Shown: positions 5,273 through 21,451 of the stretch, piece after piece
How the letters are laid out: each line of letters begins with the position of its first letter
How positions within the stretch are numbered: position 1 is the first letter of the stretch
DNA from: a virus
Length of the DNA: 21,451 bases
IMG/VR virus record: IMGVR_UViG_3300044843_000333
Location: 1 to 21,451 of that record
Direction: 5' to 3' (one strand)
Program-made: the position numbers and the translations under genes
Notes under the pieces: generated by a model
The model's input: the letters and a program-made list of their open reading frames with translations, nothing else
The model's database searches: none
Told to the model about the DNA's origin: nothing

Positions 5273-5287
5273 CACGTTTGCTACAAT
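5269..5287 (+). promoter_or_regulatory. Promoter-like site with an abnormally short spacer, or extended -10
   Basis: A perfect TTGACA (5269-5274) and a good TACAAT (5282-5287) are only seven bases apart, too close to act as a normal pair. The -10 is preceded by TGC, giving TGCTACAAT, an extended -10 that can work without a -35. A start near 5294 would give a leader of about 55 bases before the gene at 5349, and this leader contains a ten-codon ORF at 5301-5333. It lies just after the terminator-like hairpin. Confidence 0.42.
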
Positions 5288-5348
5288 CGGATTCAGAAAG
5301 ATGCGATTTCCGCTAGACATCCGGCAGGATTAGGCGCAATTTCGCCGC

Positions 5349-5810
5349 ATGACAAAAGGCGCTTACACACGCCGCGGCAGCGGAGAGATGACGAGGGACG
5401 CCAAGAGGGGCAGGCTCGATCCGGGGGAGGCCAGGATATTGAGGGGGATGGGTGAGAAGCTGGATAAGTTTTTGAAATCCCGCGGGTTGTCGCCAGACAC
5501 AAAGCCGGGCGATGGATCATGGGGTGCCAACATCAGCCATGAGCCAATGACGATCAAGCCGGCGACGGGTGACGGCGTGGTGACAGGGCGCGCTCTGCTG
5601 TTGGACTTTCGAGGCAAGCGGTTTGCTAGGCGCGGCAAGATTGAACGTCCAATGTCTTTGTTCGTAATGCTTTTCAGGGCTGCGATAGACGACGGGAAGC
5701 GGCGAGGGGTGGTTAATCCGAAGGTTGATGACGAGGAATGGATGGCGCAGTTGGAGGGCGCGAATAAACAGATAGATACCCCGGTACAGCGGGGTCCCGC
5801 GAATTTCTAG
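5349..5810 (+). CDS. Hypothetical phage protein upstream of the terminase genes
   Basis: 153 residues, Lys/Arg-rich, with no motif I recognise. The first 30 residues are basic (TKGAYTRRGSGEMTRDAKRG); ATG 5388 is an alternative start that would remove 13 of them. The centre (ATGDGVVTGRALLLDFRGKRF) looks like beta strands, and residues 95-125 are probably helical (MSLFVMLFRAAIDDGKRRG). Its position before the small terminase gene is one where phages often place a regulator, an HNH nuclease or a cos-related protein, but no such domain is visible. It probably has its own promoter and is followed by a good promoter for the packaging genes. Confidence 0.6.
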   Translation: MTKGAYTRRGSGEMTRDAKRGRLDPGEARILRGMGEKLDKFLKSRGLSPDTKPGDGSWGANISHEPMTIKPATGDGVVTGRALLLDFRGKRFARRGKIERPMSLFVMLFRAAIDDGKRRGVVNPKVDDEEWMAQLEGANKQIDTPVQRGPANF

Positions 5811-8151: not shown

Positions 8152-8182
8152 TTTTTGACATTCGCCCGCCATAAAATAACCT
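8152..8182 (+). promoter_or_regulatory. Conserved late promoter element, leaderless type (copy 1)
   Basis: TTTTTGACATTCGC begins the element; TTGACA is at 8155-8160 and, 16 bases later, TAACCT at 8177-8182. Six bases then separate the -10-like hexamer from the GTG start at 8189, placing the expected transcription start on the start codon. It aligns without gaps with the element before the gene at 21381. A weak AGACG/CGTCT stem (8134-8138 with 8148-8152) leads into the same T-run and might also terminate the terminase transcript. Confidence 0.6.
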
Positions 8183-8188
8183 TGGTGC

Positions 8189-8467
8189 GTGGCTTTGTTC
8201 GACACCGCGCGCTCCATCTATCTGGCAATCTGCGACGATCCGCAGGCGATTTCCGCCGTTAGGACCGAGCGCGCATCGCTTGCGCTTGCCATTGCCACCG
8301 ATCCGAACGGCGCTGTCCATGTGACAAGCGCGACTATGAACGGCCAGACCTTCATGGCCACGAACAGCCTCAAGCCTACCGAACGTCTCCGCGTCCTTGC
8401 GCTCGTCTGCTCAATGGCAGATGCCGGCGCCGTGCCTAGCAAAACTGTCGAACTGTATTTCCCGTAA
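8189..8467 (+). CDS. gpW-position head protein (hypothetical)
   Basis: 92 residues from a GTG start. The start is decided by the protein-like MALFDTARSIYLAICDDPQ and by the spacing to the promoter element, which matches five other genes. The layout large terminase, small protein, portal is that of lambda A-W-B, so a gpW-like head-completion role is possible, but the length (gpW is 68) and residues do not prove it. The middle is beta-rich with many Ala and Thr (TDPNGAVHVTSATMNGQTF) and the end is helical (ERLRVLALVCSMADAG). It overlaps the portal gene by one base (TAATG). Confidence 0.6.
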   Translation: MALFDTARSIYLAICDDPQAISAVRTERASLALAIATDPNGAVHVTSATMNGQTFMATNSLKPTERLRVLALVCSMADAGAVPSKTVELYFP

Positions 8468-9990
8468 TGGCTACAAGCACCATACTCGACCGATACGGCT
8501 ACCCCTACAAGTACGCGCAAGGGGCGATTCAGGACAGCCGCAAGGGTCCTGTCTATCCTGTTAGGTCAGACGATATTGACTCGCTCATTCCGGTCAACGA
8601 CCTGCGGACGCTGCGCCATCTATCTGCAATGCTCTATCAAAACATGGGCGTTCCGAAAGGCTGCCTTGATCAGATCGCAAGCTACTCGGTTGGCGAGGCG
8701 TTCCTTCCTACCTACACTGGCATCTCAGACTTTGCCGACGGCAAGCTCATTGCCAACCGGATGCGGGCGCTGTGGTTTCCGAATTGCACAACGCTGGGCG
8801 GGCCGTTCGACTGGTGGAAATTGTTAGAACTTACCAGCGTCGCAATCGACCGTGACGGCGACAACTTCTGGCTGTTTGTCAAAGGCAAGGATAATTTCCC
8901 AAGGGTTCAGATCGTGCCCGCCAACCGATGCGGCAGCGCGGATGATTCCGGCTCGGGAAAGGTTTCGAAAGGCGCGTACAAGGACTTAAAGATTTTTGAC
9001 GGGGTAATCAAGTGGCCTGGTGGCAGGCCGGCTGCGTACCGTATTCTAACCAGCGACGACTTCAAGCAATATCAGGATGTTCCGGCAGAGTCCTGCGTCC
9101 ACAATTTCGACCCCGACTACTGCGACCAATCGCGAGGCATTCCGAAATTCACACACGCCATTCAAGATTTGATTTCCTGCATTTCGAGCAACTCCGACGA
9201 ACGCGTTAGAATGCAGCTAATCAGCCGCATGTATCTAACGATCTTCAATGAGTCTGGCGGGCCCGATGTGGACGATCCCGGCTACACGATGCGGGACGCT
9301 AACCCGCGTGAAGGAACGCCGGGAATGACCGTCAAGGACATCCCTGGAGGCGTGACCTACATGACCGCCGGAACCGGTGAAAAGATGGAGCAGGTCAAAC
9401 ACGACAATCCGGGCGACATCTGGAACACCTATCAAGACAGGCTTATCCGCATGGCGATTGTCGGCGCGAAGTGGTCATACTCCATGTGGAAGCCGAGCGG
9501 CCAAGGCACCGCCGAACGTGGCGAGGTTGTCAAGATGCGTGACACGGTGCGCTCACGGCATCGCCTGTTGCGCCGTTCAGCCGGCCGTGCAATGTCGTGG
9601 GCGTATTCAATTTTCAACATCAACGGCATCATGCCGGAACTCGACCATCCCTTCTCATGGTCATTCTCGAAGCCTCCGCGCCTATCCGTTGACGACGGGC
9701 GCGAAAGCAAGATGGAGCTTGAGGAGTGGCGGGCAGGCGTCCGCAACACTGACGAAATCCTTGAAGCGCGCGGAATGACAACCGATGAATTTGACGAGCG
9801 CCGCGCGCGAATCATCGCCAACCGCAAGGTGACGGCCCGCCGCATTTCCGAGGAGGTGAGCAAGTCAAGCGGATATGAGATCCAAGTCGAGGACCGTGAA
9901 ATGGCAATGCTTACGCCTAACGAAGTCGCGCAAGTCGAGCCACTGGAAGAAACCAAACCACCTAACGAAGATGAAGATTCTACGGATTGA
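8467..9990 (+). CDS. Portal protein, lambda gpB family
   Basis: 507 residues, normal for the family. Recognised by the order terminase-small protein-portal-protease and by features of lambda-type portals: an N-terminal region with DDIDSLIPVNDLRTLRHLSA, a central AIDRDGDNFWLFV strand region followed by VQIVPANRC, the VHNFDPDYCDQSRGIPKFT stretch (portals of this family have a similar R-GxP segment), and the C-terminal EEWRAGVRNTDEILEARGM helix pair. It forms the dodecameric ring at one vertex through which DNA enters and leaves. The acidic tail (PPNEDEDSTD) overlaps the protease gene by 20 bases. Confidence 0.9.
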   Translation: MATSTILDRYGYPYKYAQGAIQDSRKGPVYPVRSDDIDSLIPVNDLRTLRHLSAMLYQNMGVPKGCLDQIASYSVGEAFLPTYTGISDFADGKLIANRMRALWFPNCTTLGGPFDWWKLLELTSVAIDRDGDNFWLFVKGKDNFPRVQIVPANRCGSADDSGSGKVSKGAYKDLKIFDGVIKWPGGRPAAYRILTSDDFKQYQDVPAESCVHNFDPDYCDQSRGIPKFTHAIQDLISCISSNSDERVRMQLISRMYLTIFNESGGPDVDDPGYTMRDANPREGTPGMTVKDIPGGVTYMTAGTGEKMEQVKHDNPGDIWNTYQDRLIRMAIVGAKWSYSMWKPSGQGTAERGEVVKMRDTVRSRHRLLRRSAGRAMSWAYSIFNINGIMPELDHPFSWSFSKPPRLSVDDGRESKMELEEWRAGVRNTDEILEARGMTTDEFDERRARIIANRKVTARRISEEVSKSSGYEIQVEDREMAMLTPNEVAQVEPLEETKPPNEDEDSTD

Positions 9991-11080
9991 AAACAAGGCC
10001 GCCAAGGTCAAGCTCGACGATACTGTCGATGAATACAGCCGCAAGCTGTTGCAGCAAGAGATTGCCAAGACCTACGGCAGCGCGAACGCTGGCAACGTCG
10101 CTGCGTTTGGCGAGATCACCAACTGCGTCGAGAACGCAATCGACACGCTCGATATTGAAATCAACTCCCCTGGCGGCGACGTCTTTGACGGCTTTGTGAT
10201 TTACAACGAGTTGCTGGCACTCCGCGCCCGCGGCGTGCATGTCACCGCCACAATCAATGCGCTGGCAGCCAGCATGGGCAGCGTAATCGCTATGGCCGCC
10301 GACGTTGTGCGCATCGTTCCTAACGGGCGCATGATGATCCACGAAGCAAGCGGCGGCATGCGTGGCAATGCCAACGACATGTCCCGCATGGCAAAGGTGC
10401 TTGACGATATTTCCAACGAGATTGCCGGGATCTACGCTGGCAAGAACGGCAAGACGGTCGAGGAAATGCGCGCGCTGATGATGCAAGAGACATGGCTAAC
10501 GGCGCAAGCCGCGATTGACCTTGGCTTGGTCGATCACTTTTTTGACATTCGCCAGACTGGAAATAAGATAGAAGCACAAACCGAAAACAGCATGATCGAT
10601 TACATTAACCGCTTGTCTAACCCGTCCGCGAAAGAATCGCTTGAGCGCATCACCGCGCTTGAGGCGTCCATCGCCTCCATGGAAACGGAACACGCCGCCG
10701 CTTTGGTTGATCGTGACGCCGCTATCGCATCGCGCGACACGCTGATTGCGGAACATGTTGCAACCATCGCCACCGCCAACGCTGCGCTTGCGGAGATTCC
10801 TGCCATCCGCGCTGAACTCGTCACCGCTGTCGCGACCATCGCGGAGCGTGACACGGCCATCGCCGCGCATGCTGCGCAACTTGAAGCGGCTGAATCCAGT
10901 GCAATGGCGAAGGCGATCGCAATCGCCGCCGCTGCCGGCATTGAGCTTCCCATCGATGTTTCCGACAAGGTGGAAAAGCCCAACATCCTCGCCAAGCTCA
11001 ACGCGCTGACCGGCGCCGAACGCACCAAGTTCTACGGCGAAAATGAACAGGAAATCAAATCGGCTCTCCTCACCAAATAA
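9971..11080 (+). CDS. ClpP-like prohead protease fused to a scaffold domain
   Basis: 369 residues from ATG 9971. Residues 1-190 are a ClpP/S14-type protease: INSPGGDVFDGF at 64-75, nucleophile Ser101 in NALAASMGS, and His124 in MMIHEA. The third catalytic position aligns with Glu173 (MQETWLTA) rather than Asp, as I recall for many phage members. Residues about 205-335 are a long Ala/Glu-rich coiled coil (ITALEASIASMETEHAAAL and following), and the last 40 are a compact tail that may bind the coat protein. This is the lambda C/Nu3 arrangement: protease plus in-frame scaffold. A conserved promoter element and an in-frame ATG sit at the domain boundary, so the scaffold is probably also made alone. 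Confidence 0.9.
   Translation: MKILRIENKAAKVKLDDTVDEYSRKLLQQEIAKTYGSANAGNVAAFGEITNCVENAIDTLDIEINSPGGDVFDGFVIYNELLALRARGVHVTATINALAASMGSVIAMAADVVRIVPNGRMMIHEASGGMRGNANDMSRMAKVLDDISNEIAGIYAGKNGKTVEEMRALMMQETWLTAQAAIDLGLVDHFFDIRQTGNKIEAQTENSMIDYINRLSNPSAKESLERITALEASIASMETEHAAALVDRDAAIASRDTLIAEHVATIATANAALAEIPAIRAELVTAVATIAERDTAIAAHAAQLEAAESSAMAKAIAIAAAAGIELPIDVSDKVEKPNILAKLNALTGAERTKFYGENEQEIKSALLTK
10539..10569 (+). promoter_or_regulatory. Conserved late promoter element inside the protease gene (copy 2)
   Basis: The 14-base TTTTTGACATTCGC is present, with TTGACA at 10542-10547, 16 bases, then TAAGAT at 10564-10569, a good -10. It encodes FFDIR in the protease frame, at the end of the protease domain. 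A start near 10576 would be 16 bases before the in-frame ATG at 10592 that opens the scaffold domain. The next strong terminator is after the coat gene, so this promoter would define a scaffold-coat unit. Confidence 0.6.
10592..11080 (+). CDS. Nested in-frame scaffold protein (Nu3-like)
   Basis: A 162-residue product in the frame of the protease gene, starting MIDYINRLSNPSAKESLERI just after the protease domain and consisting of the whole coiled coil and coat-binding tail. Support: the start lies at the domain boundary, a copy of the conserved promoter element lies 22 bases upstream (end of -10 to ATG), and in lambda the Nu3 scaffold is likewise an internal in-frame product of gene C. No Shine-Dalgarno sequence precedes the ATG. 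Internal scaffold guides coat assembly and is then removed by the protease. The separate product is inferred. Confidence 0.55.
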   Translation: MIDYINRLSNPSAKESLERITALEASIASMETEHAAALVDRDAAIASRDTLIAEHVATIATANAALAEIPAIRAELVTAVATIAERDTAIAAHAAQLEAAESSAMAKAIAIAAAAGIELPIDVSDKVEKPNILAKLNALTGAERTKFYGENEQEIKSALLTK

Positions 11081-11105
11081 TCTCCAACCAAACTAACTGA
11101 CCACC

Positions 11106-12002
11106 ATGTCTACTATCGCATTCAATGACACAATCTTCGCCCAGGAAGCGCTCAAGGCTTTCACCGCAACCCTCACCCCGCTGCGCGCATTCAGCCGCTC
11201 GCTTGACGACGTTGCAAAGAACGTCGGAGACGCAATCATCGTCCCGTTCATTTCCGCCGCGACGGCAACCACCTTCAACGTCACCTCTGCCAACTACCAG
11301 ACCGGAGGCGGCGAAGTGACGCACAACACGGTCAATCTAACGTCGCACAAGATTTGCACGTTCGATATTTCCGACTTGCAGGCCGCTAATTCCAGCGGTG
11401 CGCGCTTCGACCAGCTTGCCCAACAGGCGGGCCGCGCGCTTGGCTCGCTGGTGCTCACCGACATCTGGAAGCTCATCACTGTCGCCAACTTTGGCGCGGC
11501 GACGTTGACCACCTCCGAGGCATCCTACACGCTAGCTCAAATCATCGCGCTTCGCACCGCGCTCGCCGGCCGCAATGTCGATGTCTCGCCCGGCATGTGC
11601 GCGATGCTCTATAACACGGTTATCGGCGGCACACTGCTTGGCAGCACCAACGTCCTGCAAGCCTACGCCATCGGCGACAACACTCCGGTGCGCCAAGGCA
11701 CGCTGGGCCGCCTGGTTGGTTTCGACACCTACGAAACCAACATCATGCCGACCGCCGCCGCGACTTCGCTGGTTGCCTTCGCCTGCCACCCCGACGCCAT
11801 CAGCATCGCGATGCGCTACCTTGAGCCGCTGGATGCCAGCATGTATCTCGGGGTTGAGCGCGTGGCCGATGATTCCGGCATCGTGATGGGCTATCGCCGC
11901 AGCTATGACGCCGCCACTGGCAAAATGTACGGCGCGTTTGAATGTCTCTACGGCACCGCGACCGGCTTGACCCTTGGCCTTGTCCACTGCACCAAGCCGT
12001 AA
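11106..12002 (+). CDS. Major capsid (coat) protein
   Basis: 298 residues. Position directly after the protease/scaffold and the sequence character support this: LRAFSRSLDDVAKNVGDAII with VPFISAATATTFN near the N-terminus, a central ALAGRNVDVSPGMCAML stretch, LGRLVGFDTYETNIMP, and a C-terminal SLVAFACHPDAISIAMRYLEP region followed by GIVMGYRRSYDAATGKMYGAF. These match the coat-protein families with an HK97-like fold in which a receptor-like 'GfdvyeTN-P' and 'HPdAi' segment recur. It would form the icosahedral shell. No Shine-Dalgarno sequence (ctgaccacc before ATG). It is followed after 22 bases by the strongest terminator in the window, consistent with high expression. Confidence 0.85.
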   Translation: MSTIAFNDTIFAQEALKAFTATLTPLRAFSRSLDDVAKNVGDAIIVPFISAATATTFNVTSANYQTGGGEVTHNTVNLTSHKICTFDISDLQAANSSGARFDQLAQQAGRALGSLVLTDIWKLITVANFGAATLTTSEASYTLAQIIALRTALAGRNVDVSPGMCAMLYNTVIGGTLLGSTNVLQAYAIGDNTPVRQGTLGRLVGFDTYETNIMPTAAATSLVAFACHPDAISIAMRYLEPLDASMYLGVERVADDSGIVMGYRRSYDAATGKMYGAFECLYGTATGLTLGLVHCTKP

Positions 12003-12024
12003 CCTTTCGGGGGTTGTTCATGTT

Positions 12025-12058
12025 CCGCCGCGTCCTTCACAGGGCGCGGCGGTTTTTT
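12025..12058 (+). terminator. Strong intrinsic terminator after the coat gene
   Basis: An 11-pair stem, CCGCCGCGTCC (12025-12035) with GGGCGCGGCGG (12042-12052), one G-U pair, six-base loop TTCACA, followed at once by six T (12053-12058). It is a textbook Rho-independent terminator and closes the head transcription unit. Confidence 0.92.
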
Positions 12059-12068
12059 GTTTTCGCGC

Positions 12069-12096
12069 TTGCCAAACCCAAGCCGTCTGACAAACT
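12069..12096 (+). promoter_or_regulatory. Promoter candidate, leaderless spacing, for the glycosyltransferase insert
   Basis: TTGCCA (12069-12074), 16 bases, CAAACT (12091-12096), then six bases to ATG 12103. The hexamers are weaker than in the best copies and the TTCGC extension is missing, but the distances are identical. It comes directly after the coat-gene terminator, where a new promoter is needed for the following genes. Confidence 0.45.
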
Positions 12097-12102
12097 CCGC
12101 GC

Positions 12103-13791
12103 ATGACAAAGAAATTATCGCTGTGCGTGATTGCTGGAAACGTCGAGAAATACATCCATCGCTTTCTCGAACAGTTCGGGCCGCTGGCGGATGAGATCAT
12201 AGTTGTTGGCGCGATCGGCCACCTGACGCCAGACGGGACGATTGCCGCCTGCCGTGCCGCAGGATGCCGAATAGGATACTACGCCAACGCCAGCCAGACA
12301 GAGGAAGACATGCCGCAAGAGTGGTGCTGGCCTCACGTTGACGACTACGCCGCCGCTCGTAACGTAGCTTGCGACATGGCGACCGGCGACTGGCTCATGT
12401 GGGCGGACACGGATGACACGATCACGCCGCAATCCATAAAGGCAATCCGCGACCTGATAGAGAAGATTGACACGACGGAGATTGACGCGGTGGAGATGCG
12501 CTACATCGTGCCAGAGGATAACGTCGTCAATTGGCGCGAAAGGATTTGGCGCAAGGGAAGCGGGAGATGGGTTTATCCGGTCCATGAAAACATCCAATTC
12601 AAGCCAGGCGTCAAGATGCTGCGATTCGATGGCGCGGCGATCGTCCACGCCGCCGGCAAACGTGACCCGAAATCGGACGAGCGGAACCTTCGCATCCTCA
12701 TGAGCATATCGGAGGAAAAGCTCACGGTGTCGCAGCGATTCCACGTTTTCCAATCCTTGATTGCGCTCAAGCGCGACGGCGAAGCCATCCAAAAAGCAAT
12801 CGAGTTTTGCCAGCTTTCAAACACCGGAAAACCCGAGCGATACGAGGCATTTTTCCAGCTTGCCAGACTTGCCGCGGACGCAAGCACCAAGCACGCGATG
12901 CTATTGCAAGCTCTCGCCACGGACCCAACACGGCGGGAGGCATACGGCGAACTTGGCCTTTCCAGTCTGCCAGCGGATCCAACCGCCGCCGACGGATGGA
13001 CGCTGGCAATGATGGGGCTACCAATGCCGGAAGAACCGCCGTGGAACCTCCGCAGGTTTTACTACGGGCAACTCGGCGTGTCACTCCGCGCGATGGCACT
13101 ACGGGCAAACTGGCGCGTAAATGAAGCGGATAGAATCGAGGTGGGTCACTTCTTCAGGCATGGCGCGAAAATCAGCCTGCTTCACGCCACCCGCGGACGC
13201 CCGGCGCAGGCGTGGTCGCAGCGCAAGGAGTGGCTGCGCATGGCTGACAACGCGGACGCGATAGAGCATATTTTCGGAATTGACGAAGACGACCATGAAT
13301 CCGGCCCGCTGACCATCGCGAGGCACGTCATCGTGCCGGCCGGCAAAGGATCAGTGGCGGCATGGAACGCATGCGCGAAGGCATCAAACGGAAATGTCAT
13401 GGTGCAAATGTCGGATGACTTCGAGCCTTTCCACGGGTGGGACACCGCGATTCTGAACGCGCTTGGCAACCTGAAAAATCCGACCGTCCTTGCCGTTAGC
13501 GACGGGACTCGCAAGGACGATCTGCTATGCATGGCGATTCTCACCCGCCGGCGCTACGTGCGGCAGGGGTATCTTTTCCATCCAGACTTTTTCAGCGTCT
13601 ATTCTGATAACTGGTTTTCGCATTGCGCTTTCCGCGATGGATGCGTTATAGACGCGAGGGACAAGATCACGTTCGAGCACAAGCACCCCGTGTTTGGCAA
13701 AGCGTCGATAGACGCGACCTATGCGCGCGGGAATTCCGACAAGGCTTACGAGCAAGGAAAAGCAACAATGGAAAGGCTGATGAAATCATGA
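12103..13791 (+). CDS. Two-domain glycosyltransferase (GT-A type)
   Basis: 562 residues. Domain 1 (1-200) is a family 2-like glycosyltransferase: N-terminal KLSLCVIAGNVEKYI, DEIIVVGAIGHLTPDGT, and the metal/nucleotide-sugar motif DTDD at 102-105 in WLMWADTDD. Residues 205-300 look like helical TPR-type repeats. Domain 2 (355-540) is a second GT-A-like domain: KISLLHATRGRPAQAW, a Ser-Asp-Asp (SDD) motif at 437-439 in VQMSDDFEP, and a late FEHKHPVFGKASIDATY. It would transfer sugars from nucleotide-sugar donors; the acceptor is unknown. Its place between coat and tail genes suggests virion proteins as acceptors, by analogy with reported capsid and tail glycosylation in some actinobacterial phages; DNA bases or host surface sugars are alternatives. 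Confidence 0.8.
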   Translation: MTKKLSLCVIAGNVEKYIHRFLEQFGPLADEIIVVGAIGHLTPDGTIAACRAAGCRIGYYANASQTEEDMPQEWCWPHVDDYAAARNVACDMATGDWLMWADTDDTITPQSIKAIRDLIEKIDTTEIDAVEMRYIVPEDNVVNWRERIWRKGSGRWVYPVHENIQFKPGVKMLRFDGAAIVHAAGKRDPKSDERNLRILMSISEEKLTVSQRFHVFQSLIALKRDGEAIQKAIEFCQLSNTGKPERYEAFFQLARLAADASTKHAMLLQALATDPTRREAYGELGLSSLPADPTAADGWTLAMMGLPMPEEPPWNLRRFYYGQLGVSLRAMALRANWRVNEADRIEVGHFFRHGAKISLLHATRGRPAQAWSQRKEWLRMADNADAIEHIFGIDEDDHESGPLTIARHVIVPAGKGSVAAWNACAKASNGNVMVQMSDDFEPFHGWDTAILNALGNLKNPTVLAVSDGTRKDDLLCMAILTRRRYVRQGYLFHPDFFSVYSDNWFSHCAFRDGCVIDARDKITFEHKHPVFGKASIDATYARGNSDKAYEQGKATMERLMKS

Positions 13792-13979
13792 AAACGATAG
13801 ACGAAATAGCAATCGAGGCAATGAAGCTGTTCTTGGATGATTACATAAATCCACGCAGATATATTATTTGCGATTCAGTGCGCGCAAATCAAGCGAGGCC
13901 GTTTTCCGACATCGCAAATGAAATTGCGGAAATGTCCTACACCATGGCGAGAGCAATGTTCAACGAGTCAACGAAATGA
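13788..13979 (+). CDS. 63-residue hypothetical protein between the glycosyltransferases
   Basis: Starts at ATG 13788 in an ATGA overlap with the first glycosyltransferase and ends in an ATGA overlap with the second, so the three are translated as one unit. Acidic and basic residues alternate, probably in two helices (IDEIAIEAMKLFLDDYI and ANEIAEMSYTMARAMF). No membrane segment, signal or recognised motif. It may be a partner of the glycosyltransferases; position is the only evidence. Confidence 0.55.
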   Translation: MKTIDEIAIEAMKLFLDDYINPRRYIICDSVRANQARPFSDIANEIAEMSYTMARAMFNESTK

Positions 13980-14767
13980 AACTAACCTGCATCTGCACCG
14001 TCTATAACGAGGAAAGCCGAATCGTCAACTTCCTATCACACGCAACCAAATGGGCTGACGAGGTAATCATCCGCGACAAGCAATCGACCGACCGCACCGT
14101 TGAAATCTGCAACTCCTACGGGGTGGAAGTCATCCCCGTTCCGTTCACCGATTCCGCGCACTTTGACCCGTCATTCATCGACCCCGCGTCTAACGAATGG
14201 GTGTTTCTCATGACGGCATCCGAAACCCCGACGCGAAACCTCATCCATCAAATCAACAAGTTGCTTGACGAGCGCAGCCACGAACTCGACCTTGTGGCCG
14301 TGCCTAAGCGGCTATGGTCATTCGGCATCCATTCCAAGCAATCGCCATGGGGCGTGTCATATCAACCGTTCCTGATGCGCAAGGGCGGCGTCATCATGTC
14401 CGCGGAAATCCATCGCAATTTCTCACACGCGGAGGGTCGAGGCGCAACGATCCCGTTTGATGATCTGACGTTTGTGGATCACGCCACACATGCCACCGCT
14501 GAGAAGTTCCTGAAGCAGCACATGGAATATGCGCTTGCCGAGGTAAATTCTGACGAGTCAACCGACAGCATCAACCAGCGATGCGCTAACGCTTTGCTAG
14601 GCGCATTCGAGGGTGTGAATCCAGGTCATGAGCTTTGGTCACAACGCTGCGGGTGGAACGTCTATTTCTGGTCGATCCTGTTGCTAGCCTCCGAACGCTG
14701 CAAGGATCATCGCCCGCTGTACGAGTCTATCAGCAGGTCGATCATCGCCACGGATTGGTCTGATTGA
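13976..14767 (+). CDS. Family 2 glycosyltransferase with a degenerate DxD motif
   Basis: 263 residues. The N-terminus is typical: KLTCICTVYNEESRI at 2-16, then ADEVIIRDKQSTDRTVEI at 27-44, as in family 2 enzymes related to LPS beta-glucosyltransferases. Where these carry the metal-binding DxD/DADE motif, this protein has FLMTASETPT (77-86), with both acids before Glu83 replaced. Later features such as WGVSYQPFLMRKGGV and EIHRNFSH match the family acceptor region. Either the enzyme uses another acid, it is a catalytically weak or pseudo-enzyme partner of the larger two-domain protein, or the alignment at this motif is wrong. It is coupled by ATGA to the 63-residue gene. The promoter of the next gene overlaps its 3' end. 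Confidence 0.75.
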   Translation: MKLTCICTVYNEESRIVNFLSHATKWADEVIIRDKQSTDRTVEICNSYGVEVIPVPFTDSAHFDPSFIDPASNEWVFLMTASETPTRNLIHQINKLLDERSHELDLVAVPKRLWSFGIHSKQSPWGVSYQPFLMRKGGVIMSAEIHRNFSHAEGRGATIPFDDLTFVDHATHATAEKFLKQHMEYALAEVNSDESTDSINQRCANALLGAFEGVNPGHELWSQRCGWNVYFWSILLLASERCKDHRPLYESISRSIIATDWSD

Positions 14768-14791
14768 ATTTCGCCGGATGGCTGGTATCAT
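14764..14791 (+). promoter_or_regulatory. Late promoter element, leaderless spacing (degenerate -35)
   Basis: TTGAATTTCGCC starts at 14764, sharing TTGA and the TTCGC extension with the conserved copies. TATCAT at 14786-14791 is 16 bases after the -35 hexamer, and six bases separate it from ATG 14798. It overlaps the stop of the preceding glycosyltransferase gene. Confidence 0.58.
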
Positions 14792-14797
14792 TCCGCC

Positions 14798-15130
14798 ATG
14801 TCACTGCTTACCGCATTCTGTGCCGCCGCGTCCGCGTCAGCGGGCGCAATCATCGGTTTTGAGAGCTTGACCATCGGCACGGGCGCGGCTGTGAATGCCG
14901 TCATTTCCGAGCTCGTCACCGGCGCGACAATGATCGACATTGGAGACGACAAAGCGCAGACGCTGGAAGCGGTTGTCAGAAAGTCCGACTGGATCACCTC
15001 CTACGCGGCCACTGGGACATCCTACATCGGCAAGACGGCGACGGCGCGCGGGTTGCGGCTGAGGGTCGCCAGCGTCTCAATCGGCGCGGGATTTGTGCGG
15101 TTGACACTGGAAGATGAGCGACGCGCATAA
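14798..15130 (+). CDS. Probable head-tail completion (stopper-like) protein
   Basis: 110 residues. After a small-residue N-terminus (LLTAFCAAASASAGAIIG) the protein reads as a run of beta strands: ESLTIGTGAAVNAVISE, TLEAVVRKSD, a turn, then GLRLRVASVSIGAGFVRLTLED. A VVRKSD-type strand before a final RLTLED strand resembles small head-completion or FII-like joining proteins of siphoviruses, and the position between coat and tail genes fits. The hydrophobic N-terminus is alanine-rich and not a convincing membrane segment. Assignment rests on fold impression and context. Confidence 0.5.
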   Translation: MSLLTAFCAAASASAGAIIGFESLTIGTGAAVNAVISELVTGATMIDIGDDKAQTLEAVVRKSDWITSYAATGTSYIGKTATARGLRLRVASVSIGAGFVRLTLEDERRA

Positions 15131-15146
15131 CTGATAGCGATAACCC

Positions 15147-15174
15147 TTGCGCAAGGCTTGGGTTTTGGTATCTT
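15147..15174 (+). promoter_or_regulatory. Promoter candidate, leaderless spacing, for the ligase gene
   Basis: TTGCGC (15147-15152), 16 bases, TATCTT (15169-15174), then six bases to ATG 15181. The -35 lies in a perfect 12-base palindrome, CCTTGCGCAAGG (15145-15156), a possible operator. The TTCGC extension is missing, so this promoter may be controlled differently from the others. Confidence 0.5.
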
Positions 15175-15180
15175 TCGCGC

Positions 15181-15711
15181 ATGGCAGCGCAGCTTCTCAC
15201 CTCCGACATTCCCGCCGATCCGACAGGATGGTGGATTTCCGAAAAATATGATGGAGTCCGCGCGATATGGACCGGCTCGAAACTGCTCACCCGCAACGGG
15301 AAGAATCTTAATCCGCCCGCATGGTTCACCACCGGCTTGCCACACTGCCGACTTGATGGCGAACTATGGATGGGGCGGCAATCCTTTGACCAGCTTGTTA
15401 GCACCATCCAGCGCAAGGATTCGGATTGGAGCGGCGTGCTTTACATGGTCTTTGACTTGGCCGACGCTGGCACGTTCGAGGACCGCCAAGACTCGCTCCA
15501 CGCGTTGCGGCTGCATCACCCTGCCTATAAGGTCATACATCGCCCGTGCTTTGGCGCTGCCGAGCTTGACGCCGCCGAGCGCGACATCGTTGACGCCGGC
15601 GGTGAAGGCCTCGTCATACGCCGCCCAGGCTGCCTTTATCGCCCGGGCCGCATTGGCGATGTGGTCAAGGTCAAGCGGCTTGTTGCCGACGTTGACCGCT
15701 GGCAGGGTTAG
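15181..15711 (+). CDS. ATP-dependent DNA ligase, adenylation domain only
   Basis: 176 residues. Nucleotidyltransferase motifs in order: motif I EKYDGVRA with the AMP-accepting Lys22, motif Ia-like TRNGK at 37-41, motif III LDGELW at 58-63, motif IIIa VFDLA near 90, motif IV GEGLVIR at 141-147, motif V VVKVKR at 161-166. The protein ends ten residues after motif V, so the C-terminal OB domain with motif VI is absent; even minimal Lig E-type ligases of about 230-280 residues have it. The remaining space before the next gene is 31 bases, so no lost domain is hidden there. It may be an OB-less ligase, an adenylated-intermediate enzyme needing a partner, or a truncated remnant under its own promoter. 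Confidence 0.85.
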   Translation: MAAQLLTSDIPADPTGWWISEKYDGVRAIWTGSKLLTRNGKNLNPPAWFTTGLPHCRLDGELWMGRQSFDQLVSTIQRKDSDWSGVLYMVFDLADAGTFEDRQDSLHALRLHHPAYKVIHRPCFGAAELDAAERDIVDAGGEGLVIRRPGCLYRPGRIGDVVKVKRLVADVDRWQG

Positions 15712-15736
15712 ACTTTCGCCAGCGGCGTCCTAAGAT
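15708..15736 (+). promoter_or_regulatory. Late promoter element, leaderless spacing, GTG start
   Basis: TTAGAC (15708-15713), 17 bases, TAAGAT (15731-15736), then six bases to GTG 15743. The stretch GACTTTCGCC resembles GACATTCGCC of the conserved copies, and TTCGC is 11 bases before the -10 as in those copies. The ligase stop codon lies within the -35. Confidence 0.52.
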
Positions 15737-15742
15737 GGGCGC

Positions 15743-16510
15743 GTGCTTACAGCGAAGATCGACCGGCCGAAACTTGAGGCCTCCCTGAAACGGGCGGCGA
15801 AAGCGTTTGGCGAAACGTCCGCGCAATCCGTTGTTAGATGGGGTGTCTCAGTCTGCCGTGACCTGGCGGTACAGACGCAGGCTTTCGGCTCCAACAGATT
15901 CGGCGGCAAGGGTAAAAAATCCCGCCCGTCTCAATCCGGCAGCGGGAACAACCATGTCGATACGAGTTTCGCGAAGGGCTTGCAAGAGGGCGCAATCGTC
16001 TCCGACGCTTTCAATGTCATCATGATCGTGCCAGCCGTCGGCCCGAAAAACAAGAAGGGCTTGCGCACGCCTGGCGAGGTCAACGACTGGATAGAGATGA
16101 ACCGCACGCGGCGACGGGCGCGAACAGCCAAGCTCGCGATTGAGGACCGCAAGGTATGCACGGAGGCTGTCTTCAAAGCAGCCATGAAGATCCGATTCAA
16201 GAACGCCGGCATGGCGAAAGGCGGATGGCTCGGGGCGGGCATGGTCATTGCGAGAATGCAATCCGGCACGGAGCGAATCAACATCGGCAAGAACTTCCTC
16301 AGCTACGCCCAAAAGCATTCCAACTACGGCACCGCCAAGCCACCGATGAACGGCTACTCTCCAACCGCGGAAATGTTCAACCGCGTAAGGCATTCCGGCG
16401 CGCGCACCGTCCTATCCGACAAGGCGAAAAACGCGGCCATAGAATGGGGGCTGCGCAAGACTCTAACGTGGTACAAGAAAGCAACCAAGCAAGCACTGGA
16501 TAAAGTATGA
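15743..16510 (+). CDS. Probable tail-completion / head-tail connector protein
   Basis: 255 residues from a GTG start, chosen because it matches the promoter spacing and the protein begins at once as a basic helix (MLTAKIDRPKLEASLKRAAK). Rich in Lys and Arg throughout; the end is helical (KAKNAAIEWGLRKTLTWYKKATKQ). The order of a basic 200-250-residue protein followed by a tail-terminator-like protein and tail tube is that of tail-completion (lambda gpZ-like, HK97 gp10-like) proteins. It overlaps the next gene by ATGA. No diagnostic motif. Confidence 0.5.
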   Translation: MLTAKIDRPKLEASLKRAAKAFGETSAQSVVRWGVSVCRDLAVQTQAFGSNRFGGKGKKSRPSQSGSGNNHVDTSFAKGLQEGAIVSDAFNVIMIVPAVGPKNKKGLRTPGEVNDWIEMNRTRRRARTAKLAIEDRKVCTEAVFKAAMKIRFKNAGMAKGGWLGAGMVIARMQSGTERINIGKNFLSYAQKHSNYGTAKPPMNGYSPTAEMFNRVRHSGARTVLSDKAKNAAIEWGLRKTLTWYKKATKQALDKV

Positions 16511-16950
16511 CAGCCGAAAGAGTAAAGCAATCGTTGAAGTCGTGGATAGAATCACAGTATCAAAATCACCCGGCATTGATCGGAATTCCCATTGTTCTCA
16601 ATGGCGAATCCGATGACGTAGAAATGCCGGTCATTGGAATCATTGACACCGCATCAAGCAACATCGAACAGGATGGAGTTGTCATGCGCGGAGTCGATCA
16701 ATTGTCGATAAACGTCGAAATGCACACCGTGCCAAGGGATAATGAGGACTTTGGCACGACCATAATCGACCACTCTCAAATTGCCGAGGATCTATACAAC
16801 ATCCTTGACGACGGCCACTGCAAGGACTTCTGTGACGGCTTCAACGGGGCCACCATTTTTGACATTCGCGTTGCCTCCCCTATCATCGAAATGCGCGACG
16901 GGAGAAGGGTTTCCGTTTTTCAAATGACCGTCATTGCATGCCCACTATAA
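16507..16950 (+). CDS. Probable tail terminator protein
   Basis: 147 residues. Typical layout of tail terminators (lambda gpU-like): an N-terminal amphipathic helix (RVKQSLKSWIESQYQ), strands carrying VDQLSINVEMHTVP, a helix AEDLYNILDDG with DFCDGFNG, and final strands ending DGRRVSVFQMTVIACPL. These proteins cap the tail tube at its correct length and join it to the head. Starts in an ATGA overlap. The gene carries a copy of the conserved promoter element at 16856-16886, encoding TIFDIR, which would serve the tail-tube gene. Confidence 0.55.
   Translation: MTAERVKQSLKSWIESQYQNHPALIGIPIVLNGESDDVEMPVIGIIDTASSNIEQDGVVMRGVDQLSINVEMHTVPRDNEDFGTTIIDHSQIAEDLYNILDDGHCKDFCDGFNGATIFDIRVASPIIEMRDGRRVSVFQMTVIACPL
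16856..16886 (+). promoter_or_regulatory. Conserved late promoter element inside the tail-terminator gene (copy 3)
   Basis: TTTTTGACATTCGC again, with TTGACA at 16859-16864, 16 bases and TATCAT at 16881-16886. A start near 16893 would give a leader of about 70 bases for the tail-tube candidate at 16962. An in-frame ATG at 16891 could give a 19-residue C-terminal peptide but is probably incidental. The element is in coding sequence yet keeps exact spacing. Confidence 0.58.
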
Positions 16951-16961
16951 CCTAAATCACC

Positions 16962-17390
16962 ATGTCAAATGCAACTGTTTTCGGAGCCGGTCAATACGGG
17001 CTCGCATCTGAAGTTACCGCCACCGGCCTGCTTGCCGGCACCATCTCTTGGGATGCTTCAAGCTCCCAGGCCACCGCGCCAAATCACATCGGCTGCGATG
17101 TGCTTTTCGCCGTCTACAATCAGAAAAAGGATGTCACCATTGACGGCGTTGTGGCAACGAAAACAACCGGACTCATTGGCAACATGGGTGCCGTGCTTAC
17201 TTTGGCGAACACCGCGCACAACGGGCGCACCAGGCTCACGGAAGGCATGAGCGATACGCCTGTTGCAAACACCGCCCTAATCGTCACATCAAGCAGCCTC
17301 AATGGCGCTGGCACGGCTTTTGAGACTGGCAAGCTGACCTGCATCTATCTGCCGTCTGTCGCTACCAATTCGCCTACACCGCTGACCTAA
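16962..17390 (+). CDS. Probable major tail (tube) protein
   Basis: 142 residues, rich in Thr, Ala, Gly and Val with few charges, reading as beta strands (AGTISWDASSSQATAP, TTGLIGNMGAVLTLAN, LIVTSSSLNGAG). Between the tail terminator and the chaperone pair, the only abundant virion protein expected is the tail tube. It is short for a tube protein but not impossible. A promoter copy in the gene upstream supports strong separate expression. No Shine-Dalgarno sequence (taaatcacc before ATG). Decoration protein is an alternative. Confidence 0.5.
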   Translation: MSNATVFGAGQYGLASEVTATGLLAGTISWDASSSQATAPNHIGCDVLFAVYNQKKDVTIDGVVATKTTGLIGNMGAVLTLANTAHNGRTRLTEGMSDTPVANTALIVTSSSLNGAGTAFETGKLTCIYLPSVATNSPTPLT

Positions 17391-17407
17391 CGCAAGCTCA
17401 ATGAAAT

Positions 17408-17983
17408 ATGAAAACCGATTACACCGGAAGGAATACACGGCAGGTAGGTGACATCAATCTGGCGTCCGCGCTGATGGCTGTCGGCATTCCGCTCGACCAT
17501 GAATGCCCCGTCAAGATCATTGACGGCGAGAATCTGGCGAGGCCTTACGCGTCATTCCGCGTCTGCGATTACTCGCCAGACGGCAGGCATCAAACCGATG
17601 CTTGCATGGGTCACTGGTCAGGCGTGCAACCGCTTCCATGCGATCATCCTTTCGCTGTTGTCGCGGAGTTCATCGCCGGTCGTCCCTCTGGAAAACTCAC
17701 GGCGGATGACTGGCTAGACTATGCCATTGACTACCTGCAATCGCACGGCGTAAGCCTGCCAGGGCTGCGGAGCATTGCTAACATTTCCGAGTTTGTCGCG
17801 ACTCTTCCAACCGCGCCAGAGTCCTATGTCTTGGCCTTTGTCGCAAACAGGCAAACATGCCTTGCGCTCTATCGCAACGCGACCAGATCGGTTTACATGA
17901 CCCGCGATGACCGGCACGCCGTCATTGATTCAACCCTGCCGAAATGGCAGCGCAACGAACTACTCTCAAGACTCCAAGGATAA
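17408..17983 (+). CDS. Hypothetical protein between tail tube and chaperone genes
   Basis: 191 residues, not recognised. The N-terminal half is compact with NLASALMAVGIPLDHECPV, then SFRVCDYSPDGRHQTDACMG, followed by a helical part (PFAVVAEFIAGRPSGKLTAD, then DWLDYAIDYLQSHG). The C-terminal 70 residues look helical (LPKWQRNELLSRLQG). Four Cys are spread without a metal-site pattern. The helical end leads directly into the chaperone gene two bases later. A tail-assembly role fits position; nothing else supports it. Confidence 0.65.
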   Translation: MKTDYTGRNTRQVGDINLASALMAVGIPLDHECPVKIIDGENLARPYASFRVCDYSPDGRHQTDACMGHWSGVQPLPCDHPFAVVAEFIAGRPSGKLTADDWLDYAIDYLQSHGVSLPGLRSIANISEFVATLPTAPESYVLAFVANRQTCLALYRNATRSVYMTRDDRHAVIDSTLPKWQRNELLSRLQG

Positions 17984-17985
17984 TT

Positions 17986-18369
17986 ATGAAACGAGACAAC
18001 CTGCTAACACTATCATGGACCGGCGCTCCGCTAGTCCACAACGGGCGCGAACTAGTCCTTTCCTACGGGCGCTTTGAGCTTCTCAAGTCGTGGGGCAACG
18101 AGCTTCTTTCAGACGCTGACACCGATCAAAGCCGCTCTCACGCTATGGGCGAGATTGCGCTTGTGTGCTGCTCTACCAAGGATGAAATCAAGGAGTTGAA
18201 TCGCATGACCGCGGACGATCGCAAAGCCGCCGTCACGGAATGGATGATCGACAACGAGGAGGCCACCGGCGATTTGTTCGAAGGCATCGAAATCCGCATC
18301 GCCGCAATCAAGGCCGCGACGGTGGAAAGCGAGACGCCGGGAAAGGAGGATGCTCGCCATGCTCCCTAG
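17986..18369 (+). CDS. Tail assembly chaperone, short form (gpG-like)
   Basis: 127 residues from ATG 17986, chosen because AAGGA lies five bases upstream, one of the few clear Shine-Dalgarno sites in the window; an earlier in-frame ATG at 17944 lies in the previous gene. Largely helical and acidic (DRKAAVTEWMIDNEEATGDL, then FEGIEIRIAAI). Location just before the tape measure gene is that of lambda G. In this class the short form is the major product and a minority of ribosomes shift into a second frame to add the T-like domain. It contains a GGGAAAG heptamer eight codons before its own stop. Confidence 0.7.
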   Translation: MKRDNLLTLSWTGAPLVHNGRELVLSYGRFELLKSWGNELLSDADTDQSRSHAMGEIALVCCSTKDEIKELNRMTADDRKAAVTEWMIDNEEATGDLFEGIEIRIAAIKAATVESETPGKEDARHAP

Positions 18370-18578
18370 CTCATCTGGAATTATTCGCGATGCGCAACCG
18401 CGTCAATGCGGATTATCTGATATGGGATTGGGACATGGCGAAGGTAATGCAGCTTTTGCACGCGGAAGGCATACGCAACAACGCGACCTATCAATGGGCG
18501 AATTTCTTCGAGCCGGAACAGGACTTGCTAGACGAGTTCGAGCGGCTGGCAAACCCTAACGAATTGGAGGACTTATGA
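17986..18578 (+). CDS. Tail assembly chaperone, frameshifted long form (gpGT-like)
   Basis: Predicted product of a -1 frameshift at GGGAAAG (18339-18345): 120 residues of the short form joined to 77 residues encoded in the -1 frame from 18345, total 197. The added part (GGCSPCSLAHLELFAMRNRV, then NADYLIWDWDMAKVMQLLHA) is protein-like and runs without stops to a TGA that forms an ATGA overlap with the tape measure gene. It has no plausible independent start: the first in-frame ATG, at 18390, has no ribosome site. The long form binds the tape measure and recruits tail-tube subunits in lambda. The frameshift is predicted, not observed. Confidence 0.75.
18339..18345 (+). promoter_or_regulatory. 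Programmed -1 ribosomal frameshift site
   Basis: GGGAAAG read as G GGA AAG in the short-form frame is exactly the X XXY YYZ pattern, and it is the heptamer of lambda genes G/T. A following AAGGAGG stretch and a possible GGAG/CTCC hairpin (18345-18348 with 18362-18365) start without the usual spacer. Confidence 0.72.
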
Positions 18579-19747
18579 TCGGATCAAAAGTTGTAATCGG
18601 TTATGACGGAAAGGCGGTGAAGCAAGGCTTTGCTGACATTAATAAGCACTCGAAGCATTTGGGCAAGGGATTGTTTAGCGCGTTCACCGGATCGTCGTTT
18701 GGAAAAGCCGTAGCCGGAATAACAGCCTTGGGCGTAGCGATAAAGGGCATAACAATGTTCAAGGAGATGGTTGATTTTTCTGGAACGCTCAACGATGTAT
18801 CATTCCAGACTGGTCTTGCTGTTGACGATGTTGTAGTTCTTGGACAGGCATTCAAAGCCGCCGGAATAGACGCAAGCATGGCGTATATGGCGATTTCCAA
18901 ACTACAAAAGAATTTGCAGGATGCCAAGGAGACCGAAATAGTTCCTCTGTCTCTAACTGATTTGAAAAAGGGCGAGACCGATATCTACAAATACAAGGAG
19001 ACGGCAAATGAGCAATACAAGGCATTGACCAAACTCGGCTTGAGCATTCGCGACCTTGACACGATGAAGCTGGATGATGCATTCTGGAAGATTGGCAAGC
19101 TCATATCCATGAAACCGAGAGGTGAGCAAGAGCAGTTAGTAAGCTCTCTTTTCGGCGCAAAACAAGGTGCTAAATTCTTAGGCGTGTTCAATGATATTGA
19201 GGCGGCCAAGAAGCGCGCCGAAAGATTCAGGGGCATCGGATTGAATTTCAAGAAGGATCAAGCCGAGCTTGACGACTTTGGCGACGCGCTTGGAGACATC
19301 CCGCTGCTGATGAACGAAATGTATAGGTCATTATACGGCGGTATGCGCCGCGTGTTTGGCAAGGACTTTGCGCTTAACTTTCTCGATAAGTGGTTTTCGG
19401 AAAAATCAATAACCGGATTTGTCAACAGGGTTTCTAACGCTTTCGATTCAATATCCAAGATGGTTAATGAGAAGGGTTTCTTTGGAGCAATTGTGGATTA
19501 CCTCAAGGACGCGTTTATTGATCTTGGAAGATACATCGGACAAGGCATCGCTGAATCAATCAAAGGTGTTATGCCGTGGTCTTTCGGAGGTGGAAAGAAA
19601 ACCGCGGGACTATCTAGCAATATGTTCAACCCCATCGCGTCTACCAGCAATGGAGATGGATACGGCGTGGAAATTCTCAAGGTTCTTGAAACATCCAAGG
19701 ACTATCTGAAAAAGATTACAAACCAAGGAACACCGCTTTTCTCATGA
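18575..19747 (+). CDS. Tail tape measure protein
   Basis: 390 residues, starting in an ATGA overlap with the chaperone long form and preceded by a clear GGAGG (18566-18570) four bases from the ATG. Early residues (KAVKQGFADINKHSKHLGKG) are a basic helix, followed by a hydrophobic segment (FGKAVAGITALGVAIKGITM) at about 42-61 and a DDVVVLGQAFKAAGID pattern typical of tape measures. A second helical hydrophobic region is FGAIVDYLKDAFIDLG. Tape measures set tail length at roughly 0.15 nm per residue, so a tail of about 58 nm is expected (inference). It is short for the class and holds no lytic transglycosylase motif. Coupled to the next gene by ATGA. Confidence 0.8.
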   Translation: MIGSKVVIGYDGKAVKQGFADINKHSKHLGKGLFSAFTGSSFGKAVAGITALGVAIKGITMFKEMVDFSGTLNDVSFQTGLAVDDVVVLGQAFKAAGIDASMAYMAISKLQKNLQDAKETEIVPLSLTDLKKGETDIYKYKETANEQYKALTKLGLSIRDLDTMKLDDAFWKIGKLISMKPRGEQEQLVSSLFGAKQGAKFLGVFNDIEAAKKRAERFRGIGLNFKKDQAELDDFGDALGDIPLLMNEMYRSLYGGMRRVFGKDFALNFLDKWFSEKSITGFVNRVSNAFDSISKMVNEKGFFGAIVDYLKDAFIDLGRYIGQGIAESIKGVMPWSFGGGKKTAGLSSNMFNPIASTSNGDGYGVEILKVLETSKDYLKKITNQGTPLFS

Positions 19748-20595
19748 GCCAATCACTGCTTTACGGAATTGCTCCTAACACTTGGAAAACCGGACCGGAC
19801 TTCTACGCCGCGCGCGATGAAACCGGCAAGTGGACTGGCGGCATAACCATCTATTGCCGCAAATTCGATTTCAAGTCCGCGCAGATTCAGGCGATTCTAA
19901 AGCGCGGCGTTCCATGCACCACGATCTATCCAGAGCTTACATCTTCATGGAGTTGGTTCTATGTCGATTCCGTCGATCACGAACACAAGCCAGGCGGGAT
20001 TACTGAAATCCGCGTCAAGTTCACCGGCACGGAAGCGGGCGCGGATGGCGAGCAGGAAGAGAAGGATCTAACGTATACGCTAAACGGGAGTCTTGTGGAA
20101 AGGTCGATACTTGAACATCCCGACGTAAAGAAGTGTTATGCGCAAGAACAATGGGGCGCGTTTTCTTTATTGCTTGACGGCACCGTGATTGTTGATCCCT
20201 TATTCCATCCAACATCCAGCTTAATTAAATTAGTATACGCAACTACCAGATCCATGTTCCACGACTTCACGGACACTGAAAGCATCAAGTGGTTCGAAAA
20301 GATTTTCCTGCAAGGTGAACGGACTTGGGAATGCGCTCAATTAGAATGGACAATGAGCGGCACCAACCTTGGCGGAATCAAGGCAGACACGCTTAAAAAA
20401 CTTGGATTTATTGACGATGACATCAAGGGCGAACCACCAACGCCGCAAGGCTGTAATTGGCGCATGATGACAGCCACCGAGTCAAGGACCGACGGAACCG
20501 AAAAATGCACATCTTCATTTTCTATCGGCTGGCTATGTTCTCCGCAAGGTACGACATGGGACGCCGACAAATACACATACAAAGTCCCGACATGA
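19744..20595 (+). CDS. Probable distal tail protein (hypothetical)
   Basis: 283 residues, unrecognised. The first 80 residues read as beta strands with aromatics (GGITIYCRKFDFKSAQI, TSSWSWFYVDSVDHEHKPGG), the middle has EIRVKFTGTEAG, and the end has several Cys (GCNWRMM, KCTSSFSIGWLCSPQG). Its place after the tape measure is that of distal-tail or baseplate hub proteins. Overlaps both neighbours by ATGA. Base composition is slightly more AT-rich than the head genes. Confidence 0.55.
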   Translation: MSQSLLYGIAPNTWKTGPDFYAARDETGKWTGGITIYCRKFDFKSAQIQAILKRGVPCTTIYPELTSSWSWFYVDSVDHEHKPGGITEIRVKFTGTEAGADGEQEEKDLTYTLNGSLVERSILEHPDVKKCYAQEQWGAFSLLLDGTVIVDPLFHPTSSLIKLVYATTRSMFHDFTDTESIKWFEKIFLQGERTWECAQLEWTMSGTNLGGIKADTLKKLGFIDDDIKGEPPTPQGCNWRMMTATESRTDGTEKCTSSFSIGWLCSPQGTTWDADKYTYKVPT

Positions 20596-21350
20596 TCCAA
20601 AAGAAAGGAAACCAGATAGGCGTTCCGCTGCCGAGTGTGGCAATCAAGGACAAGACGCCCATCACCGCGCAATGGGCAAACACCGTCAGGATTGCATTGC
20701 AGCGTCTATCAAACCGGCGCAACGATGGGATTGACGACAATGGCGTCTATTACATCACACCTCCATTCTGGCCGACGTTCTACGGCAAGCCGGATGTTGC
20801 CGGATTCTTCGTCAAGCTGTCTCACGGCGTGGTTATTGACCACGACCCAACCGAAACAGCGGCAGATGCGTTGCTCTATTACCCATGTTCTAACGAGTTG
20901 ACCGGCGCGTATCTCACGGAGTTTCAGATTGCCGACGGAGAAGGCGTGTTTGTGAAATGCACGATGCTAGAAGACTGGTCGATAGATCCCGCCACCGAAC
21001 CGGAGATTGTCATTGAAGACAAGGATATTGCGTCAACCAATCCAACATCCAGCGGAGGCGGAATCCACTATTACAAGATTGCGACGCTCGAAGAAATCGC
21101 CGGGGAGATTGTAATCACGCCGTACGCCGCCGGCAACAACATCGAACACTACCGGCAGAAAGCGGAGCAATCCGAGCAGGATGCTGCCGGCGCAGATGGT
21201 GAACTCTGGTTTTATAGGTACGGCGGCGAGGGACCGTTCAAGATCTTGGAGTGGACCAACGGAAAAATAACAACCACCGGCAACAATCTCGTCACATTCC
21301 ATTACGACGGCTGGCTGGAGATTGCTCCATACACCCCCACCGATTTTTGA
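20592..21350 (+). CDS. Probable tail tip or fibre-associated protein (hypothetical)
   Basis: 252 residues from ATG 20592 (ATGA overlap); the upstream open part in this frame is shadow of the previous gene. Begins with a conserved-looking GNQIGVPLPSVAIKDKTPIT and AQWANTVRIALQRLSNR, followed by a WPTFYGKPDVAG domain with many beta strands, a Ser/Gly linker (TSSGGGIHYYK) near residue 156 and a final strand-rich stretch. Distal tail or fibre role is inferred from position. It ends 30 bases before the last gene, in the gap that carries a promoter element. Confidence 0.55.
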   Translation: MIQKKGNQIGVPLPSVAIKDKTPITAQWANTVRIALQRLSNRRNDGIDDNGVYYITPPFWPTFYGKPDVAGFFVKLSHGVVIDHDPTETAADALLYYPCSNELTGAYLTEFQIADGEGVFVKCTMLEDWSIDPATEPEIVIEDKDIASTNPTSSGGGIHYYKIATLEEIAGEIVITPYAAGNNIEHYRQKAEQSEQDAAGADGELWFYRYGGEGPFKILEWTNGKITTTGNNLVTFHYDGWLEIAPYTPTDF

Positions 21351-21374
21351 CATTCGCACCACAAAAACTACCCT
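21344..21374 (+). promoter_or_regulatory. Conserved late promoter element, leaderless type (copy 4)
   Basis: TTTTTGACATTCGC, with TTGACA at 21347-21352, 16 bases, TACCCT at 21369-21374, and six bases to ATG 21381. It lies across the stop codon of the preceding gene and aligns base for base with the element at 8152, including the ATGGC/GTGGC start that follows. Confidence 0.6.
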
Positions 21375-21380: not shown

Positions 21381-21451
21381 ATGGCAATTTCATCCGCACA
21401 ATCAATTTCCGGCATGTTTGCCGTAGGCGAACACACGGGGCCGCTGTACGT
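21381..21451 (+). CDS. Start of a gene cut by the window end
   Basis: Opens MAISSAQSISGMFAVGEHTG and continues past the end. Nothing can be said of its function from 23 residues; its position suggests a tail fibre or a minor tail protein. The start is supported by exact spacing from the promoter element, as at five other genes. Confidence 0.55.
   Translation, partial: MAISSAQSISGMFAVGEHTGPLY

Follow-up and report, generated by a model that had tools for sequence, protein, structure and literature searches.

What is the function of a 14-base sequence, TTTTTGACATTCGC, that recurs along the virus record IMGVR_UViG_3300044843_000333? The whole stretch of DNA analysed, 21,451 nucleotides (nt) long, is referred to below as the window. 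An earlier note on this DNA had proposed a late promoter element made of TTGACA, a TTCGC extension and a fixed TAnnnT hexamer. Comparison with related phages now makes it likely that the sequence belongs to repeated sigma-70-type late promoters, which would supply virion genes with messenger RNAs (mRNAs) that are leaderless or have short leaders. The late timing is deduced from the downstream genes that the sites appear to serve.

Six sites of identical geometry in the window

Exact copies begin, as had been claimed, at 8152, 10539, 16856 and 21344, all on the + strand, and 16 bases separate TTGACA (at 8155, 10542, 16859 and 21347) from TAACCT, TAAGAT, TATCAT and TACCCT, respectively. The claim that such repetition cannot be chance also stood: no 14-mer had more than two copies in 300 simulated windows (Markov models of orders 1, 2 and 5), versus four here, and a reversed-pattern control gave zero matches. 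Two of the three partial forms noted earlier proved to be full members. These are TTGAATTTCGC at 14764 and TAGACTTTCGC at 15709 (the true start of the form placed at 15708), which carry TATCAT and TAAGAT after the same 16-base spacer and whose first base lies exactly 34 nt ahead of a start codon. The third, TTGACATACGC at 2427, is probably unrelated, lacking both a TAnnnT at the right spacing and a start codon at +34; a near match on the minus strand at 7764 was likewise dropped. The total is six sites, four exact and two diverged:

8154..8189, + strand: promoter 1; T+TTGACATTCGC at 8154-8165, -10 TAACCT at 8177-8182, predicted RNA start at GTG 8189
10541..10576, + strand: promoter 2, in the head-protease open reading frame (ORF); TTGACATTCGC at 10542-10552, -10 TAAGAT at 10564-10569, predicted RNA start at A10576
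14764..14798, + strand: promoter 3 (diverged); TTGAATTTCGC at 14764-14774, -10 TATCAT at 14786-14791, predicted RNA start at ATG 14798
15709..15743, + strand: promoter 4 (diverged); TAGACTTTCGC at 15709-15719, -10 TAAGAT at 15731-15736, predicted RNA start at GTG 15743
16858..16893, + strand: promoter 5, in ORF 16507-16950; TTGACATTCGC at 16859-16869, -10 TATCAT at 16881-16886, predicted RNA start at G16893
21346..21381, + strand: promoter 6; TTGACATTCGC at 21347-21357, -10 TACCCT at 21369-21374, predicted RNA start at ATG 21381

The copies at 10539 and 16856 lie inside upstream ORFs and both read the peptide FDIR in frame, as a coding coincidence might produce. That coincidence, or chance, has a virtually negligible probability in our estimate: that frame is not a coding one at the other copies, the simulations never reached the observed multiplicity, and in a sister clade (clade B, described below) the tail-tube junction retains TTGACA although a different peptide is read there, so that the peptide does not explain the DNA.

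Distance to start codons and the case for leaderless mRNAs

A feature absent from the earlier note is the fixed distance of 34 nt between the first T of TTGACA and a start codon, found at four of the six window sites (8155 to GTG 8189, 14764 to ATG 14798, 15709 to GTG 15743, 21347 to ATG 21381). Because this is where the first RNA base is expected for a sigma-70 promoter with a 16-base spacer, leaderless mRNAs are implied. Among 20 sites in the phage family with at most one mismatch (TCCGC scored as a match), the start codon stood at 34 in 11 and at 35 in two, and the remaining seven were all at scaffold or tail-tube junctions. Family-wide, 14 of 89 distinct coding-strand TTGACA sites lay 34-36 nt upstream of a start codon; permuted hexamers did so at a mean of 2.2%, the best permutation reaching 3. 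Shine-Dalgarno sequences were nearly absent (GGAGG at 1/24 checked starts, that of gene 18575), which fits leaderless translation. The arrangement typical of leaderless genes, a -10 about 12 nt before the start and no Shine-Dalgarno sequence, was present at the same four window sites, whose mRNAs are thus probably leaderless, with RNA starting at or near the start codon.

The fixed start-codon distance and the near-absence of Shine-Dalgarno sequences might also be expected if the element worked at the RNA level, signalling translation from a position 23-34 nt ahead of the start codon. We consider this very unlikely: scaffold and tail-tube sites that have no start at +34 still hold the -10 A and T and mostly the pyrimidine-purine step, TTGACA and TAnnnT persist at a spacing of 16-17 where the rest changes, and an Rfam search returned no match.

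Conservation of the element in related phages

Relatives were collected by a portal search, which returned near-identical fragments (L005-L007), phages at 56-58% portal identity (L008, L009-L011), clade B at ~54% (L132-L145, L154, L155) and a further set at ~50-54% (L146-L153). Loss of the element from the corresponding places in relatives had been named as the observation that would speak against it; instead, phages at 50-58% portal identity keep it at the same gene junctions, a comparison that gives good support to reading the sites as sigma-70-type promoters. Same-junction conservation was seen in the window type, L008, L009, L150 with its near copies, L151 and L153, over a range of 43-62% guanine plus cytosine (G+C).

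The consensus of 24 non-redundant sites from six diverged lineages was TTTGAC[AT]T[TC][CG]GC-N11-(T/A/C)AnnnT-N5-C-purine. The A at -11 was kept in 24/24 sites, the T at -7 in 20/24, the C at -1 in 21/24 and a purine at +1 in 22/24, and the bases between the box and the -10 were near-random; none of these four kept letters was a criterion for choosing most of the sites. The kept -10 letters are those that a sigma factor must flip out, and a pyrimidine followed by a purine is the usual context of a transcription start. With TTGAC near-invariant and a spacer of 16 bases (17 in clade B and in phage P8625), the sites have the marks of sigma-70 promoters. The TTCGC extension is real, being conserved as well as the -35 itself. 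The "fixed" TAnnnT holds for the window, but in relatives only the A at position 2 and mostly the T at position 6 are retained.

A scan of IMG/VR for the exact architecture found 14 stretches, nine of them from this phage family, versus five when the start codon was shifted by two bases as a control, two of which were the family's tail-tube sites. The element is nearly confined to this phage group, as judged from these sequences. Scanning the collection for TTGACATTCGC-N11-TAnnnT alone gave mostly chance matches, with a start at +34 in 3/119 and no excess. A GGCAAA dyad partner, suggested by L150, L151 and the L009 scaffold site, failed at other sites.

Exchanged boxes in a sister clade and in P8625

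TTGACA also occurs at the same junctions in clade B. It stands 35-36 nt ahead of an ATG there (109 at the tail tube), and spacers of 16-17 bases separate it from TAACAT, TAGAGT, TAGACT or TATCAT as the -10. The extra sequence repeated in clade B is an inverted repeat, TCTAAC...GTTAGA. The portal tree recovers this clade as a single supported group, placed among several lineages that have TTCGC. Of the reference phages, only the Verrucomicrobia phage P8625 (NC_029047.1, L131) matched the portal and the capsid alike. Like the window, P8625 has a TTGACA-like -35 (TTGACA, TTGCCA or TTGCAA) at comparable genes, exactly 36 nt before five ATGs; these promoter-like sites precede a small pre-portal gene, an adaptor-like gene and tail genes. 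Unlike the window, it has a 17-base spacer and, in place of TTCGC, a GTATC...GATAC dyad over the -10, which its close relatives keep. The P8625 paper does not mention promoters. For P8625 gp13, a leaderless promoter is predicted at 9620-9656 whose -35 (TTGCCA) coincides with the TTG annotated as the gene's start; translation is likely to begin at ATG 9656, in the same frame.

The same core at the same place with different boxes suggests that the core promoter and its position are old and the attached control sequence lineage-variable. In the window, an extra box common to several virion-gene promoters is present as TTCGC at all six sites. TTCGC is a lineage-specific box, most likely a contact for a regulator or a specialised sigma; contact with an activator or host factor, the suggestion made earlier, is plausible given the other boxes in sister lineages.

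The box might instead be a repressor operator that silences virion genes early or in lysogeny. The inverted repeats of clade B and P8625 do lie over the spacer and -10, the usual place for a repressor. TTCGC, on the other hand, is not a dyad (a consistent dyad was sought among the window's own sites and none was found), it is fused to the -35 in fixed register, as is more typical of positive recognition, and the part of the genome seen contained no recognisable gene for a repressor or an integrase. We therefore rate repression as rather improbable.

Proposed mechanism

The reading we prefer is that the element forms the -35 half of sigma-70-type promoters that drive late virion genes individually in a tailed phage. 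These promoters would combine an enlarged -35, TTTGAC(A/T)T(T/C)CGC, with a degenerate -10 sixteen bases past TTGACA, and transcription would start six bases past the -10 on a purine after C. Host RNA polymerase with a sigma-70-type factor would read them, with help from a lineage-specific factor at the enlarged -35. TTCGC would be dispensable for promoter identity family-wide, other boxes standing in for it; where present, it would most likely provide selectivity for a phage activator beside sigma region 4, or for a dedicated sigma, and so let the late genes fire jointly. Copies inside ORFs would give the scaffold and tail-tube genes transcripts of their own, with leaders of ~16 and ~69 nt.

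Genes predicted to be served

The genes downstream of the six sites are as follows; the scaffold, adaptor and tail-tube names are drawn from position and composition.

8189..8467, + strand: 92-amino-acid (aa) gene, predicted leaderless, lying between the terminase and portal genes; every relative has a homologous start
10592..11080, + strand: 162-aa coiled, putative scaffold-like protein, from an internal ATG at the end of the head-protease ORF
14798..15130, + strand: 110-aa gene, adaptor-like by position; counterparts at L009 13982 and in clade B (a 110-aa gene with TTGACA at 35)
15743..16510, + strand: 255-aa gene of the head-tail region, predicted leaderless
16962..17390, + strand: 142-aa gene, putative tail tube by position, behind the longer of the two predicted leaders
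21381..21451, + strand: start of a fibre-region gene (MAISSAQ...) that runs past the window end; homologous start at L207 16407

PHROGs assignments around the sites were terminase, portal, head maturation protease and major head protein. Promoter 1 is kept in L008, L009, L010 and L146-L153. Promoter 2, whose site at 10542 lies 50 nt upstream of the internal ATG 10592, has equivalents at L008 5103, L009 9559 and L150 4725; in L008, the scaffold is encoded separately (5150-5599), by a gene that has its own promoter. Promoter 4 has counterparts in exact form at L008 7219 and L009 14894, promoter 5 has equivalents at L008 8297, L009 16008, L150 12459 and in clade B, and promoter 6 has counterparts at L008 13784, L200 10166 and L206 2989. 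Three further sites are weak and tentative:

5314..5349, + strand: TAGACATCCGG 35 nt upstream of ATG 5349, with CAATTT at 5337-5342
12069..12103, + strand: TTGCCA-N16-CAAACT-N6-ATG 12103, without TTCGC
15147..15181, + strand: TTGCGC-N16-TATCTT-N6-ATG 15181, without TTCGC

Several other features of the region were noted. A perfect 8-nt inverted repeat, CCGCTGGC/GCCAGCGG (15696-15703 and 15718-15725), flanks the diverged promoter at 15709. In promoter 5, TTTGACAT (16858-16865) is complementary to ATGTCAAA (16962-16969) at the tail-tube start codon, possibly by chance. The head-tail genes include one for a 176-aa ATP-dependent DNA-ligase-like protein (15181-15708), which L009 also has, and two large ORFs (12103-13791 and 13976-14767), glycosyltransferase-like by eye only, lie between the capsid and adaptor genes.

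Search for a factor and a host

Several points weigh against the proposed promoters and their partner. No regulator for the box was identified in the window and the relatives examined, and Sigma70_r4 gave nothing above cut-off in the window, seven related contigs and P8625, most of these records being incomplete. The -10 sequences of relatives are poor by E. coli standards (AAnnnT, CAAAAC), the sites found in relatives lack independence, and a start at +34 helped four of the 24 consensus sites to qualify, which makes those four weaker evidence. Gene starts are ORF-based, and RNA starts and leaderless translation are predictions from sequence and comparison. The host is probably a member of the Verrucomicrobia, an assignment that comes from the P8625 portal and capsid matches only.

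The empty sigma searches would suit ordinary host sigma-70 promoters, as would TTGACA and a -10 whose key positions hold A and T. TTCGC would then be a preference of the host polymerase with no phage factor involved, and TTTGACATTCGC should be enriched before host genes. We regard this as unlikely, if a serious contender: TTCGC persists in lineages that span 43-62% G+C and presumably have different hosts, a sister clade within the tree carries a different box in these promoters, and the exact architecture is nearly family-confined in IMG/VR and absent from P8625.

Searching ~85,000 genomes by terminase and portal found no prophage or host copy. Three proteins of relatives were noted in passing. 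P8625 gp40 (L131 26427-26849) has two tandem helix-turn-helix (HTH)-like repeats and is a lead as a possible regulator of the GTATC/GATAC promoters; a short Cro-like ORF in L206 is likewise an HTH lead only. L206 10810-11418, from the L150 lineage, encodes a Mom-like DNA modification protein (Pfam Mom, E 6.7e-16).

Relation to known systems and implications

Sigma-70 promoters that work with phage activators or a co-opted sigma are familiar from lambda CII, Mu C/Mor and T4 MotA/AsiA. As in those systems, a -35 and a -10 are accompanied by a conserved box that touches the -35 and is used by a set of genes; here, in contrast, the predicted RNA start is at the start codon, the box varies by lineage at the same genes, and the searches described above identified no partner protein. 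In Deinococcus-Thermus and Actinobacteria, leaderless mRNAs are known to come from ORF-adjacent TANNNT promoters (PMC3160421, PMC12340547). Shared with these are the -10 ~12 nt before the start, its kept A and T, the lack of a Shine-Dalgarno sequence and the predicted RNA start at the start codon; unlike them, the sites described here are a small set before phage virion genes, dominated by an enlarged, near-invariant -35, with a degenerate -10. AR9 late promoters resemble the element in being a short consensus before many late genes, some of them inside ORFs, but those promoters (AACA-N6-TA/G) are attributed to a phage multisubunit RNA polymerase and have leaders of 26-491 nt (PMC5312081). The combination of an enlarged -35, starts at virion genes and within ORFs for scaffold and tail tube, and exchange of boxes was not found in the literature searched. 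Literature matches to the literal TTGACATTCGC had unrelated titles, mostly on heart-cell work, and presumably reflect a primer sequence.

More broadly, leaderless dispersed virion promoters with a conserved core, in which boxes (TTCGC, TCTAAC/GTTAGA, GTATC/GATAC) are swapped wholesale, each with its own phage-encoded factor, might amount to a late switch that is portable, in phages whose hosts are probably Verrucomicrobia; we offer this tentatively, as possible but somewhat short of an even chance. If the promoter reading is true, it would be a first predicted late-gene control scheme for this mostly uncultivated phage family. Under this scheme, structural genes of the phage should be translated from leaderless mRNAs and the scaffold protein should start internally; gene starts such as that of P8625 gp13 would be corrected. 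It would also constitute a natural promoter series in which only the regulator box changes, so that the partner protein should be findable by comparison.

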